Shown here: one piece after another, positions 2,390 to 6,092 of the stretch
Numbering within the stretch: position 1 is the first letter of the stretch
How the letters are laid out: each line of letters opens with the position of its first letter
NCBI RefSeq assembly: GCF_009617895.1
Contig: NZ_BLAW01000001.1
Span: 3,401,001 to 3,465,000 of the forward strand
Reading direction: 5' to 3'
From: Prolixibacter sp. SD074
GTDB lineage: Bacteria; Bacteroidota; Bacteroidia; Bacteroidales; Prolixibacteraceae
Length of the DNA: 64,000 nt
The notes under the pieces: model-generated
Seen by the model: the letters and a program-made list of their open reading frames with translations, nothing else
Database searches by the model: none
Told to the model about the DNA's origin: nothing
Made by a program: the position numbers and the translations under genes

Positions 2390-3352
2390 TTGATAAAACG
2401 AAACTACATATTAAAACGTAGCAATCTTTTAGGATTGATTGTTTTGCTGATGTTACTTCCCTTTGCGGGGAAAGCGCAGCAGGACCCGGTTTTTACGCAG
2501 TACCTGAACAACGTACTGACAGTGCAACCCGCCTATGCAGGAAGTCAGGGTACCCTGAATGTGACGGCACTTTCGCGGCAGCAGTGGGTGGGGTTCGATG
2601 GCGCTCCGTCGACGAATACAGTTACCGTACAAGCCCCGCTGAACTCCTACAACGTCGGTCTCGGCATGTCGATTTACAACGATAGTTGGGGACCGGTCAA
2701 GCAAAATGGTATCTATTTCGATTATGCCTACCGTGTTCGCGCCAGTCGTTACAATCGCCGGCAGTATATATCCTTTGGTTTGGAGGCCGGTTTCAACCTG
2801 TACGAGGCCCGGTTGACGGGGCTTCAGATTAACGATCCGAACGATCCGGTGTTTGCCCAGGATATCAACTACAAATTTCTGCCCAATTTCGGAGTCGGGG
2901 TGCTGTGGCATGGCGATCGCTTCTTCCTGGGATTATCGGTACCTAAAATTCTCAAAAGCGCCATTCAGAAAGAGACGACGAATTTGAGCCAGACCGAAGT
3001 ACTTCACTTCTACCTGATGGGAGCTGAGGTTTTCAATGTATCACGTTACGGTACCCTGAAATTTAAACCTTCGTTTTTGGTCCGGTATGCCCAGAATGCA
3101 CCTATCTCTGCCGATGTCTCAGCACAATTCCTGATTAGTGACAAAGTTTGGGTGGGCGCCACCTATCGGTATCAAAACTCTTTTGGAGGCTTGTTGCAGT
3201 TTTATGTTAACCCTCAGTTAAAAATCGGTTATGCCTATGACATGACAACCATGCCGGAGGCGCACTACAATGCCGGTACACATGAATTCATGGTAAGCTA
3301 CGATTTCGACCTTGGCCGCCGCCGCCGCCGCATAGGCCCGCGGTATTTCTAA
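2390..3352 (+). CDS. PorP/SprF family type IX secretion outer-membrane protein
   Basis: An outer-membrane beta-barrel protein of about 320 residues. Proteins of this family help export or anchor one partner adhesin through the type IX secretion system. The N-terminus is a signal peptide ending near LLPFAGKAQQ; it is followed by the family hallmark QDPVFTQYLNNVLTVQPAYAG and alternating aromatic strands. The C-terminus is a basic run RRRRRIGPRYF. A TTG start is chosen because the complete signal peptide begins there and the ATG at 2371 runs into a stop after five codons. The partner is probably the adhesin ending at 1210. No strong promoter box is visible, so it may be read from upstream through the repeat. 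Confidence 0.9.
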   Translation: MIKRNYILKRSNLLGLIVLLMLLPFAGKAQQDPVFTQYLNNVLTVQPAYAGSQGTLNVTALSRQQWVGFDGAPSTNTVTVQAPLNSYNVGLGMSIYNDSWGPVKQNGIYFDYAYRVRASRYNRRQYISFGLEAGFNLYEARLTGLQINDPNDPVFAQDINYKFLPNFGVGVLWHGDRFFLGLSVPKILKSAIQKETTNLSQTEVLHFYLMGAEVFNVSRYGTLKFKPSFLVRYAQNAPISADVSAQFLISDKVWVGATYRYQNSFGGLLQFYVNPQLKIGYAYDMTTMPEAHYNAGTHEFMVSYDFDLGRRRRRIGPRYF

Positions 3353-3379
3353 ACAGAAAGCTTTTCTCAGCAATTAATA

Positions 3380-4063
3380 ATTCCTCGCAAAGAACGCTAA
3401 GGACCACCAAGGCCAGGACGATAAATCTTTGCGGCCTCTGCGTGGTGCCTTCAATTCGTTCCTCGCAAAGAACGCTAAGGATCACAAAGCCCGCTAAGTA
3501 ACAAACCGGCAGCGCCCAAGGCCATGACAATAAATCTTTGCGGTCTCCGCGTGGTGCCTTCTGTTTATTCCACGCAAAGAGCGCAAAGGACCACAAAGCC
3601 CGCTAAGAAATAAACCGGCAGCGCCCAAGGCCATGACAATAAATCTTTGCGGTCTCCGCGTGGTGCCTTCAATTCGTTCCCCGCAAAGAACGCTAAGGAC
3701 CACAAAGGCCAGGACAATAAATCTTTGCGGTCTTCGCGTGGTGCCTCTATTCATTCCCCGCAAAGAACGCTAAGGACCACAAAGGCCAGGACAATAAATC
3801 TTTGCGGTCTTCGCGTATTCAATCTTAGCGGCCTCTGCGTGGAACCTTCTGTTTATTCCCCGCAAAGGGCGCTAAGGAACCACAAAGGCCGCAGAAGATT
3901 GCATGTTATGTCGGCAATTTTATTTGAAAGGGATTGATTAATATAAAGCTAAAGTAGGCCTCTCTTTATCTTTGCGGTCTCCGCGTATTCAATCTTAGCG
4001 GCCTCTGCGTGGTGCCTTCAATTCGTTCCACGCAAAGAACCCCAAAGTACGCAGAAGATTTAT
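3380..4063. repeat. Palindromic repeat array, left block flanking the GxxExxY gene
   Basis: Seven left arms of the type CGCAAAGAACGCTAAGG begin at 3386, 3464, 3573, 3682, 3759, 3861 and 4031. Each is followed by a right arm of the type CTTTGCGGTCTTCGCGTGG, which is nearly the reverse complement of the left arm (CCACGCAAAGAGCGCAAAG against CCACGCGGAGACCGCAAAG in the unit at 3573). Every unit could therefore fold into a long imperfect hairpin. Unit spacing falls into two classes, 77-78 bp and 102-109 bp; the longer class carries about 31 extra bases between the arms. There are no unique spacers, so this is not a CRISPR array, and no reading frame has coding character. Confidence 0.9.
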
Positions 4064-4065
4064 GA

Positions 4066-4452
4066 TTAATAATCTCCAAGTCCATTCACTATCCGGTGTA
4101 TGTTTTCTTTCAGAATCTTGCTATTGAAGTTCAAAAGTAACCCAAGCTTTACGTCGGACAACTTCAAATAAGTCAATACTTGTGCAAAATGAACCGGAGC
4201 TAATGACTCAACGGCTTTAATTTCAATAATAACTTTGTTTTCAACTAAGAGGTCAACCCGGTAGCCGACATCCTGCTTTACTCCTTTATAAATAAAAGGC
4301 ATTGGAACTTGCTGTTTGACATTTAGGCCAGCCAATCTTAAATCATAAGCAAGTGCATTTTCATAAGCAGATTCCAGTAAGCCGGGACCAATTGTCCTAT
4401 GAATACTAATAGCTGTTCCTATAATTTTGTGTGAAATTTCATTTTCTGTCAT
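4066..4452 (-). CDS. GxxExxY family protein, PD-(D/E)XK nuclease-like
   Basis: A 128-residue protein with the naming motif GLLESAY at residues 24-30. It carries a PD-(D/E)XK-like active-site pattern: E27, D67 (in YRVDLLV) and E77-I-K79 (in VIIEIKA), followed by a conserved Q91 in QVLTYLK. The length is normal for the family, whose cellular role is not established to my knowledge; nuclease fold membership is family knowledge plus these residues. The gene lies inside a palindromic repeat array: similar units, in the same orientation, flank it on both sides and come within a few bases of its stop codon. No Bacteroidota promoter box is visible upstream. It could be a repeat-associated nuclease, or a solitary gene that carries the repeats with it. 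Confidence 0.85.
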   Translation of the reverse strand: MTENEISHKIIGTAISIHRTIGPGLLESAYENALAYDLRLAGLNVKQQVPMPFIYKGVKQDVGYRVDLLVENKVIIEIKAVESLAPVHFAQVLTYLKLSDVKLGLLLNFNSKILKENIHRIVNGLGDY

Positions 4453-4509
4453 AAGGTTTGTTTTTGTGTTGTTTACCTGTTTTTCGGTTCTTTATGGAGC
4501 ATTAATTTA

Positions 4510-4757
4510 ATTCCACGTAAAGCCTGCAGGATTTTTTTTAATTCCTCGCAAAGAGCGCTAAGGACCACCAAGGCCATGACAATAAATCCCTGCGGTCTCC
4601 GCGTGTTCAATCTTTGCGTTCTCTGCGTGGACCCATCTGTTTATTCCCCGCAAAGGGCGCTAAGGACCACCAAGCCCAGGACAATAAATCCCTGCGAACT
4701 CCGCGTGTTCAATCTTTGCGTTCTCTGCGTGGAACCTTCTGTTTATTCCCCGCAAAC
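4510..4757. repeat. Palindromic repeat array, right block flanking the GxxExxY gene
   Basis: A degenerate arm (CACGTAAAG) near 4515 is followed by left arms beginning at 4547 and 4649 and a truncated one at 4751, with right arms CTGCGGTCTCCGCG and TTTGCGTTCTCTGCGTGG between them. They are the same family and orientation as the block at 3380-4063. The array stops seven bases before the stop codon of the efflux adaptor gene, so it fills almost the whole gap between the nuclease gene and the efflux operon. Confidence 0.88.
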
Positions 4758-4763
4758 CTGACC

Positions 4764-6092
4764 TTACTTCTTCGTTTTATACAGCTCATCTATCGGAACA
4801 ACCTCTACCGTCATGGAGTCTTTCAGCGTACGTGAAATAAGTCCGTAAGGAGCTACAACCACTTCTTCACCATCTTTCAGCCCATTTTCAATTTCGATGT
4901 TGACATTATCCTGAATACCGGTTTTGACCCGTTTTTCACGAACGACACCGTCATTATACACAAAGACAACTTCATGCTGTTTGGCTTCAGGTTTAGGTTT
5001 GACGGTTGTTGTTTCATCGGTTTCCCCACTGTTTTCCTGTTGTAAACCAGTTGTTTCATCCCTGGCTTCACCTTTTCCGCTGCGGGTGGTAACAGCCTGG
5101 ATGGGAACCGTAATCACACCGTTGCGGGTATTGGTCCGGATATCGACAGTGGCTGACATTCCCGGTAGGAAAGGATAACGATCCGATGGGTTTTTTAGCA
5201 AATCATTATAGGAACTCTGCAGCAGTAAAATCTTTACATCGAAGTTGGTGACCTGGTCGGTTGAGGAGCCGGTCACATTGGCCGAGCTGGCAATTTCGGT
5301 CACAATACCTTTGAATTTTCGGTTCATATATGCGTCAATCTCCACCAGTGCCGTATCGCCTGACTGCACTTTTACAATATCGTTTTCGTTCACTTCTACC
5401 TTCACTTCCATGCTATTGAGGTTGGCCACGGTCATCAGCTCGGTACCGGCAAACTGGTTGGTCCCAACGACCCGTTCGCCTTTCTCTACATTCAGTTTCG
5501 AGATCGTTCCCGTAATAGGAGCGTAGATTTTTGTTTTGGTCAGGTTTTCCTGGGATTCCTGCACACTCGATTCCGCACTTTTCACCATGTATCGCGCTGC
5601 CTCGACGTCGGAAACAGCAACTTTATAGGCTGCTTCGGCTGACTGATAATCGGCTTGGGAGATGGTCTGCTGTTTATAAAGTTGTTTCGACCGGTCGAAA
5701 TTCAGTTTTTTCTCGGTCAATTGCGCTTCTGACTGTGCCAATCGCGCTTTTTGGGTATTCAGGGTGGCGCGCAAACGGTTGAGATTGGAAATGTAAATAT
5801 CGGGCTTAATGATAGCCAGTAAGTCGCCTTCCTTTACTTCATCGCCCTCCTTCACGGGAAGTTCAATAATCTCACCCGGAACTTCCGGGCTGATTTTTAC
5901 TTCCGTTTGCGGCTCAATCTTTCCGTTTGCCGTAATGAGCTCGGTAATATCTTTCTTCCCGGCTTTTTCAACAGCTACCCGGGTAGCAAATTCTTTTCCG
6001 AACCAGCCGGCTTGTTTACCTACAATAAGCAGAATGATAACTGCAAAGACAACGATGATGGGCAGACGGAAACTCCTTTTTTTCTTCTTCAT
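4764..6092 (-). CDS. Efflux periplasmic adaptor (HlyD/MacA-like), last gene of the operon
   Basis: A membrane-fusion protein that bridges an inner-membrane ABC permease to the TolC channel. An N-terminal membrane anchor (residues 11-24, PIIVVFAVIILLIV) is followed by a lipoyl-like half (EVPGEIIELPVKEGDEV), a long coiled-coil hairpin (about 95-190), the second lipoyl half (YAPITGTISKLNVEKGERV) and a beta-barrel. Near residues 344-378 there is an insert rich in Glu, Thr and Lys (GKGEARDETTGLQQ onwards) that is absent from the other adaptor of this operon. At 442 residues it is longer than its paralogue at 7579-8682. It is the promoter-distal gene, 60 bp after tolC, and ends directly at the palindromic repeats. 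Confidence 0.88.
   Translation of the reverse strand: MKKKKRSFRLPIIVVFAVIILLIVGKQAGWFGKEFATRVAVEKAGKKDITELITANGKIEPQTEVKISPEVPGEIIELPVKEGDEVKEGDLLAIIKPDIYISNLNRLRATLNTQKARLAQSEAQLTEKKLNFDRSKQLYKQQTISQADYQSAEAAYKVAVSDVEAARYMVKSAESSVQESQENLTKTKIYAPITGTISKLNVEKGERVVGTNQFAGTELMTVANLNSMEVKVEVNENDIVKVQSGDTALVEIDAYMNRKFKGIVTEIASSANVTGSSTDQVTNFDVKILLLQSSYNDLLKNPSDRYPFLPGMSATVDIRTNTRNGVITVPIQAVTTRSGKGEARDETTGLQQENSGETDETTTVKPKPEAKQHEVVFVYNDGVVREKRVKTGIQDNVNIEIENGLKDGEEVVVAPYGLISRTLKDSMTVEVVPIDELYKTKK

Follow-up and report, generated by a model that had tools for sequence, protein, structure and literature searches.

The GxxExxY gene carried by a 64,000-nucleotide stretch of the Prolixibacter sp. SD074 genome (contig NZ_BLAW01000001.1, positions 3,401,001 to 3,465,000; hereafter the window) encodes a small protein of the PD-(D/E)XK nuclease family and lies within an array of palindromic repeats. 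Comparison with other genomes suggests that genes of this family are probably the coding part of a very small mobile element, ~450-500 bp long and mostly found between genes, in which the nuclease would act on the element's own arms and drive its copying or insertion, and of which palindromes consisting of arms only would be non-autonomous forms. The arms and their inverted orientation, the frequent match between the two arms of one locus, the link between the words composing the arms (their wording) and the clade of the protein, the tie between repeat abundance and presence of the gene, the empty sites and the protein fold were all computed directly. What we infer from these features is cutting or joining by the enzyme at the arms, with movement of the element as its result.

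The original prediction, made from the window alone, mentioned similar repeats beside GxxExxY genes in other genomes and proposed that repeat density be scored near such genes and elsewhere. The family (NCBIfam TIGR04256) was found in 186 of 395 sampled Bacteroidota genomes, and the best-scoring of the matches listed provided 100 loci from 93 genomes, mostly one each, on stretches of up to 20 kb. Some matches lying at the edge of a contig or interrupted by a stop codon were left out of this set; one locus with an in-frame stop (L144) was kept in the arm counts and omitted from the protein tree. Gene starts were placed at the nearest in-frame ATG or else at the start of the profile match. When 7-mers within 400 bp of the gene were compared with those more than 4 kb away, using no preset motif, the leading words in the flanks of the 100 genes were CACAGAG (132 occurrences vs. 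4.5 expected) and CGCAAAG (164 vs. 10.8), followed by CGCAGAG, CGCTAAG and CACGGAG. All five are forms of one heptad, CRCDRAG. Lower-ranked words were mostly shifted readings of these five, and one of them, ATCTGTG, belongs to a sister arm class that uses CRCRRAT words. The heptads read inward toward the gene, with 23.4 per kb on the plus strand in the 50 nt upstream and 34.8 per kb on the minus strand in the 50 nt downstream, compared with ~0.4-0.5 per kb far away, and their density returned to background within a few hundred bp. At least three heptads were present within 300 bp on either side of the gene at 87 of 100 loci vs. 77 of 3254 distant windows of 600 bp. The presence of such repeats near GxxExxY genes in other genomes was thus confirmed, and the proposed density score revealed an enrichment that is both strong and oriented.

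The two arms of a locus frequently match each other. An arm-match score of at least 28 was reached by 58 of 100 loci; the corresponding figures are 27 of 500 when loci were mis-paired and 5 of 700 for control open reading frames (ORFs; open frames of at least 120 codons, not verified as genes). In many loci the upstream arm approximates the reverse complement of the downstream arm, up to 33 of 33 letters in L107 and 41 of 42 in L076. Outward from the heptads, matching falls to the level of unrelated pairs after ~5 nt (89 loci), and the typical element therefore has defined ends, approximately (T)TMAC-heptads ... heptads-GTKAA, each consisting of two to four inverted CRCDRAG heptads (CRCRRAT in some clades) spaced ~1-4 nt apart. 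Terminal inverted repeats with defined ends, a hallmark of insertion sequences, are consequently present for the family and missing around the window gene. This loss of outward matching also led us to reject insertion of GxxExxY elements into pre-existing hairpins, an idea raised by extended palindromes in two genomes (G371 and G249). Clusters of arms only, away from the gene, numbered 33 in 1.89 Mb; 17 consisted of plus-strand followed by minus-strand heptads (3 expected for random strands) and 7 had the opposite order. GxxExxY genes also occur as possibly tandem pairs on the same strand within 1.1 kb (G092:C4:68683-69764 and G198:C1:3199652-3200531).

Abundance of the repeats depends on presence of the gene. 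The exact motif CGCAAAGNNCGCAAAG has 801 copies across the 186 gene-bearing genomes and 24 across the 209 gene-less genomes; a hand tally of the reversed motif gave 7 and 22 copies, respectively, placing the 24 copies of gene-less genomes at chance level. All 35 genomes with at least five copies, representing 13 families, have a GxxExxY gene. A second wording (CACAGAG and CACRGAG separated by 1-4 nt) occurred 813 times in gene-bearing vs. 56 times in gene-less genomes (reversed control, 50 vs. 13), with at least five copies in 44 genomes having the gene and 2 lacking it; because the sampled genomes are related, p-values for these gene-bearing vs. gene-less comparisons are indicative only. Two genomes, G371 (29 copies) and G156 (7 copies), account for 36 of the 56 gene-less copies. 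Apart from these two exceptions, neither of the outcomes that the original prediction had named as telling against itself, a lack of enrichment near GxxExxY genes elsewhere and equal abundance of the repeats without the gene, was observed. Its proposal of a joint spread or maintenance of gene and repeats draws support from both the enrichment and the gene-dependent abundance. In G371, which is 99% complete, the palindromes are long and clean, and several extend their complementarity into locus-specific flanks (L375-L378); arms-only palindromes of this genome may have been inserted into pre-existing hairpins. Following a gene that we take to be ffh, the palindrome wording differs in all five species of the same genus (L383-L387), with heptads in two and other words in three, as if a terminator stem had been repeatedly rewritten.

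The wording of the arms follows the clade of the protein. A tree of 126 proteins was built, 116 of which carried an arm-class label; it rests on few columns and contains many open forks. Eighteen of 30 further loci joined this tree and the G.U sets, those left out being the own copy, edge-cut and unused loci, and five minus-strand loci. The arm class (..AG vs. ..AT) needs 4 changes among the 116 labelled proteins; with T as the group over all 126 rows there were 6 changes, compared with a shuffled mean of 21.5 and 0 of 500 shuffles as low. Clades with AT arms span hosts of several families, and a single genome (G236) possesses three GxxExxY genes belonging to three clades with three wordings (L068, L161, L162). 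At a site of the Flavobacterium type, for which 30 loci were read (L248-L277), a GxxExxY match lies beside a methyltransferase gene in 17, with a fragment only in L270. Most of the 17 occupied loci contain one subfamily with CRCDRAG arms, and a second subfamily, ~38-41% identical, has CACGAATT arms (L254, L259, L262, L264, L265, L267, L272). The two subfamilies occupy different species, each with its own wording.

Empty sites were identified at several junctions. Two species of the same genus as the window genome (G396 and G397) retain the same flanking genes, and the intervening 1.41 kb (3352-4763) is replaced by ~0.25-0.43 kb of unrelated sequence containing neither the array nor a GxxExxY gene; in a third (G395) the left neighbour of the site differs. 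The Flavobacterium-type site lacks GxxExxY in 13 of 30 loci, where the flanking genes abut in three (L266, L275, L276), are separated by a short gap in six or by other sequence in three, and are cut off in one. Bacteroides finegoldii has a GxxExxY gene between radA and a gene for a flavin adenine dinucleotide (FAD) protein; the same two genes are 13 nt apart in Parabacteroides distasonis and enclose a different, longer sequence in Phocaeicola massiliensis. Likewise, the fabD-GxxExxY-fabG arrangement of Sphingomonas parapaucimobilis is represented by a short gap only in S. paeninsulae. The junction between two genes that are presumably gmd and fcl holds a GxxExxY gene in the Prolixibacter genome and other small inserts in its relatives (L360, L361, L362, L363). 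In G395, G396 and G404 the insert is a four-helix-bundle gene (TIGR02436, 106-107 bits) with word-like sequence on its flanks; in G414 it is a palindrome built from CGAATT words and containing no gene.

The product of the window gene is a protein of 128 amino acids that matches TIGR04256 over its full length with 149.6 bits (cut-off 35) and Pfam PF13366 (PDDEXK_3) with 141.9 bits (cut-off 22), scores that uphold the earlier description of the gene as nuclease-like. Alignment of 105 GxxExxY sequences revealed ten invariant columns, G22, G24, E27, Y30, D67, E77, K79, Q91, L106 and N108, among them all four residues (E27, D67, E77, K79) previously proposed to form the active site; Y95 is conserved in at least 90% of the sequences. 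Searching the PDB with the GxxExxY profile gave no sequence match up to an E value of 1. An AlphaFold2 model based on 105 sequences, the protein's own and related ones, had a mean predicted local distance difference test (pLDDT) score of 94.7, and the solved structure closest to this model is SSO0001 (4ic1; Foldseek E 2.1e-4), which we take to be a Cas4 protein; comparison of the two gave a VIA Z score of 9.6, with 99 residues aligned at a root-mean-square deviation of 3.7. A restriction-endonuclease-like protein of Spirosoma was the second-best match (Z 8.6), and other nucleases, including lambda exonuclease and AddAB/AdnAB, followed. As modelled, therefore, the window protein has a restriction-endonuclease-like core fold of the RecB/Cas4 kind. 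The RecB/Cas4 nuclease group is characterized by D, ExK and QxxxY motifs, and D67, E77-x-K79 and Q91xxxY95 of the GxxExxY family match this set. Cas4 proteins bind an iron-sulphur cluster through cysteines; the window protein contains no cysteine and hence no such cluster, which rules it out as Cas4 proper. Holliday-junction resolvases ranked behind SSO0001 in the fold comparison (Z 6.9 and lower), and for this reason we favour a resolvase function less. A known activity of Cas4 enzymes is the trimming of DNA ends, ahead of integration, at a short signal in the sequence, making it a natural guess, by analogy, that the GxxExxY nuclease may have an end-defining role at the heptads.

Within the window itself (Table 1), 46 of 91 CRCDRAG/CTYHGYG heptads fall between 3380 and 4757 and 45 across the other 62.6 kb. 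A 34-nt left arm is present in nine copies, all on the plus strand (3381, 3459, 3568, 3677, 3754, 3856, 4026, 4542, 4644), mostly 77-109 nt apart. The original prediction had described about ten palindromic units in a single orientation, close to both ends of the gene. The array is real and its left arms do share one orientation; the palindromes, however, are imperfect and fold weakly, with z scores from +0.24 to -2.15 when six units were folded as single-stranded DNA. Similarly, a half unit does abut the stop codon, but ~90 nt separate the start codon from the first full arm on that side, and the arm at 4506 is degenerate. The best arm-pair score of the window gene is 18 within 150 nt and 29 within 400 nt. 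The array looks like an expanded and untypical local version of the general pattern, which the original prediction had not noticed, of a single inverted arm pair enclosing most such genes. A clustered regularly interspaced short palindromic repeats (CRISPR) array was ruled out, since the sequence between the arms itself recurs from unit to unit and does not consist of unique spacers, and an Rfam scan of the window detected tRNAs only. The two genes flanking the array are convergent. Near-identical ORFs in tandem on the minus strand (1344-1667 and 1674-1931; region 1344-2293) lie beside the PorP-family gene, and related sequence at L035 10300-10650 marks another dispersed repeat family.

Table 1. 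Repeat units, GxxExxY gene and flanking genes in the window.
Feature	Coordinates	Strand	Details
Left flanking gene, PorP/SprF family	2390..3352	+	TIGR03519, 267.5 bits; edge of empty site
Repeat unit 1, 78 nt	3381..3458	+	Left heptads CGCAAAG, CGCTAAG; right heptads CTTTGCG, CTCTGCG
Repeat unit 2, 109 nt	3459..3567	+	~31 extra nt
Repeat unit 3, 109 nt	3568..3676	+	
Repeat unit 4, 77 nt	3677..3753	+	
Repeat unit 5, 102 nt	3754..3855	+	Right arm doubled; fold z -1.82
Repeat unit 6, 170 nt	3856..4025	+	Inner segment of ~70 nt (three more copies in sister array, L035)
Half unit abutting stop codon	4026..4065	+	Read on the gene strand, 3' arm CTTCTGCG..CTTTGGGG..CTTTGCGTGGAA
GxxExxY gene, 128 aa, PD-(D/E)XK nuclease family	4066..4452	-	TIGR04256 and PF13366 profiles, fold model
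Degenerate arm upstream of start codon	4506..4528	+	
Repeat unit 8, 102 nt	4542..4643	+	Outer arms pair over ~20 nt; fold z -2.15
Repeat unit 9, 102 nt	4644..4745	+	
Truncated left arm, end of array	4746..4757	+	
Right flanking gene, RND efflux periplasmic adaptor	4764..6092	-	TIGR01730, 184 bits; other edge of empty site

Throughout the 3.96 Mb Prolixibacter genome (one contig), the pattern CGCAAAGNNCGCNAAGG, allowing one mismatch, has 31 matches vs. 2 for the reversed control, and these fall into three clusters only: the window array (8), a second array (19) and a third cluster (4). The second array is located at L035:6780-9310 (genome 3386.8-3389.3 kb), 15-18 kb from the window array and on both sides of tsaB (TIGR03725, 158 bits); it has no GxxExxY gene, and the ~70-nt inner segment, present once in the window array, occurs there three times. 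The third cluster lies upstream of gmd, ~1.4 kb before the second GxxExxY gene of the genome, which is situated between gmd and fcl and is bordered by a separate pair of short arms, CACGCAAAAAGCGCAAAG and CGCTTTTTGCG (arm score 30). Among the repeat copies upstream of gmd are two small ORFs (L037:7241-7832), the first of which has no NCBIfam match. A third GxxExxY copy, at 1.763 Mb, is broken.

The same architecture appears to extend beyond Bacteroidota. A scan of named genomes retained at least 80 loci, most of them from Bacteroidota, to which two confirmed loci on viral contigs were added; 77 had complete flanks. Among the matches listed, 71 of these 77 loci contain at least three heptads of either class in 300 nt, compared with an average of 0.73 in 300 nt of more distant sequence, and 47 have an arm match of at least 28. 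By hand count, 20 of the loci listed are filed outside Bacteroidota and close relatives, under Planctomycetota, Cyanobacteria, Chloroflexota, Acidobacteria, Neomarinimicrobiota, Desulfobacteraceae, Alphaproteobacteria/Rhizobium, Methanothrix and Methanosarcinales; 19 of them have heptads and 13 have matched arms. The Anabaena catenula locus (L290) comes from a named strain, and one of five plasmid loci, from Bacteroides finegoldii, has clean matched arms.

Taken together, these observations are consistent with a mechanism in which the nuclease would recognize its own words in its arms and act on those arms, most likely as a hairpin or cruciform. This action might start the copying or insertion of any DNA bounded by arms, including both the nuclease's own gene and gene-free palindromes. 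Arms-only palindromes would then be non-autonomous derivatives, similar to miniature inverted-repeat transposable elements (MITEs) or to the hairpin-forming doublets (REPINs) of repetitive extragenic palindromic sequences (REPs), and in the window such gene-free units would have accumulated locally next to a single copy of the gene, forming an array that is absent at the same site in two sister species.

Several points weigh against this proposal. Movement and cleavage are deductions and not observations, and a target-site duplication was not recognizable at the several empty and occupied junctions compared, where the flanks are too diverged. Repeats are present in G371 and G156, although a PF13366 search of these genomes up to an E value of 10 gave no match, so that repeats can evidently persist or spread without the gene. 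The largest array of the Prolixibacter genome (19 of 31 pattern matches) holds no GxxExxY gene, the window gene lacks a well-matched arm pair within 150 nt, and the CGCAAAG motif is absent from 98 of 186 gene-bearing genomes. When insertions at orthologous positions were compared, the arms of one locus matched each other better than those of sister species in 29 of 47 cases (p 0.014), a slight excess which implies that, once an element has inserted, arm pairing is kept up only weakly. Plasmids seldom carry the gene (8 of 72,556 records), and a search of 50,697 phage records found none. Plasmid loci of Gemmatirosa and Sphingomonas have heptads but no matched pair around the gene, that of Treponema has a single AT-class word per side, and that of Prevotella has none. 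Finally, most loci outside Bacteroidota, both archaeal ones included, lie on metagenome-assembled contigs whose taxonomic assignment may be wrong.

Other explanations account for parts of these findings. The nuclease might cut arms-only palindromes, its gene being copied into the break by repair from an occupied site, with no transposition to new sites. The typical position of the gene between two arms would follow from such homing, as would the arms-only clusters of gene-bearing genomes (33 in 1.89 Mb) and the gmd-fcl junction, which is occupied by GxxExxY in Prolixibacter and by a gene-free palindrome, albeit of other words, in G414. We nevertheless consider it unlikely, given that empty sites of the Flavobacterium type in nine species (three with abutting genes, six with a short gap) are free of arms, that the empty radA-FAD gap is 13 nt, and that 98 of 186 gene-bearing genomes lack the CGCAAAG motif. 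Rather improbable, in our estimate, is the spread of the palindromes by something else, such as template switching at hairpins or another enzyme, with a GxxExxY gene that simply benefits or is attracted. The gene-less G371 and G156 favour this explanation, together with the gene-free largest array of Prolixibacter, the post-ffh palindrome that differs in all five species, and the four-helix-bundle genes, which are likewise often enclosed by inverted arms, though made of different words (10 of 30 with a score of at least 28). Against it stand the chance-level frequency of the CGCAAAG wording without the gene (24 copies in 209 genomes), the tracking of protein clade by arm wording across host families, and the three genes, clades and wordings that coexist in G236.

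The arms might instead serve at the RNA level, pairing in a transcript so that RNase III cuts the gene out and the insert becomes harmless in an operon. Insertions between co-directional genes (fabD/fabG and radA/FAD) are compatible with this function, and the terminal inverted repeats and size resemble those of the Coxiella intervening sequence (IVS), as described in PMC4990558. Selection on RNA pairing should lead to better tolerance of G.U than of A.C, but G/A vs. A/G mismatches, at 103:100 overall and 34:20 in the heptads, give no clear excess, and at least one locus (L099) has arms pointing the other way; RNA insulation seems a distant prospect. Most improbable by far is a chance or regulatory context, in which the repeats are terminators or promoters near a small gene. 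Terminators are expected between convergent genes, where the window array lies, and its single units fold weakly, but the enrichment is far above that of control ORFs and far windows, and the two arms match in a locus-specific manner.

If the nuclease does move arm-bounded DNA, this would account for the GxxExxY gene and also for a large group of dispersed repeats that lack an explanation, and a nuclease type would be added to the enzymes that spread palindromes. The family is very common in Bacteroidota, and no function is given for it in those excerpts of the literature that were found. Because arm wording changes with protein clade, the loci also offer testable protein-DNA pairs. A wider reading, which we put forward tentatively as close to an even proposition but somewhat short of it, is that these loci constitute a new class of mobile DNA, present in numerous phyla of bacteria and probably in archaea. 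A single Cas4-like nuclease of ~125 residues would here read heptads in the inverted terminal ladders as a code specific to its clade, and would move itself along with gene-free palindromes. The four-helix-bundle S23 genes may represent a second such class that uses different words; a small gene within a palindrome of word ladders would then be a general architecture, with the rRNA intervening sequences as one of its branches.

The open-licence literature searched contained, among the matches listed, no link between GxxExxY genes and heptad repeats, and the excerpts that name GxxExxY do so only in passing. The known systems that share features with the element differ from it in enzyme, ends or location. 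Like insertion sequences and MITEs, it has inverted repeats near the ends of a single gene and arms-only copies. It has no DDE transposase, however, its arms are degenerate word ladders that vary by locus, and no target-site duplication could be recognized between the diverged flanks of the junctions compared. Free-standing homing endonucleases of the PD-(D/E)XK type exist, and they too are small nuclease genes of patchy presence between host genes; GxxExxY differs in the inverted heptad arms that accompany the gene and follow its clade, and in having no single target gene. The Cas4/RecB nucleases share its fold and its D67, E77-x-K79 and Q91xxxY95 motifs, while the GxxExxY protein has 128 residues, compared with 202 in the matched SSO0001 chain, and lacks cysteine.

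The REP/REPIN system and its REP-associated tyrosine transposase (RAYT) provide a close parallel: a gene family is bracketed by inverted palindromes, non-coding copies are dispersed, and repeat abundance is tied to the gene. Flanking of the gene by inverted copies of a genomic repeat holds for the GxxExxY family, and weakly for the window gene; repeats that are abundant only with the gene are likewise found, with G371 and G156 as exceptions. RAYT is a Y1 HUH transposase and REPs are tagged by GTAG/CGTC, whereas the GxxExxY enzyme is a PD-(D/E)XK protein of the RecB/Cas4 type, and its ends are degenerate heptad ladders without such tags. Because both the enzyme family and the ends differ, the GxxExxY element is not a member of the REP/RAYT group; assignment of the protein to PDDEXK_3 by profile and by predicted fold excludes a Y1 HUH enzyme.

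The intervening sequences of 23S rRNA resemble the element in overall layout. That of Coxiella is 428 nt long, with an S23 ORF, a 28-bp stem and processing by RNase III, according to the report cited above (PMC4990558), and so shares with GxxExxY loci a small ORF between terminal inverted repeats, a length of ~430 nt and a tolerated insertion. The GxxExxY protein has a different fold, its arms consist of different words, and insertion occurs between protein genes and not in rRNA helices; identity with this system was rejected, since the window locus is not in 23S rRNA (Rfam) and its protein is not an S23 four-helix bundle (profiles). When 30 loci of TIGR02436 four-helix-bundle genes outside rRNA were read (L198-L227), 10 had inverted arms built from other short words, such as ACTAAG and GTATCAAG; as carriers of CRCDRAG these proteins were discounted, at least three heptads being present in 2 of the 30 loci only. 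Both gene types thus use armed inserts and can share a junction, which offers a handle on the role of the rRNA-IVS four-helix-bundle genes.

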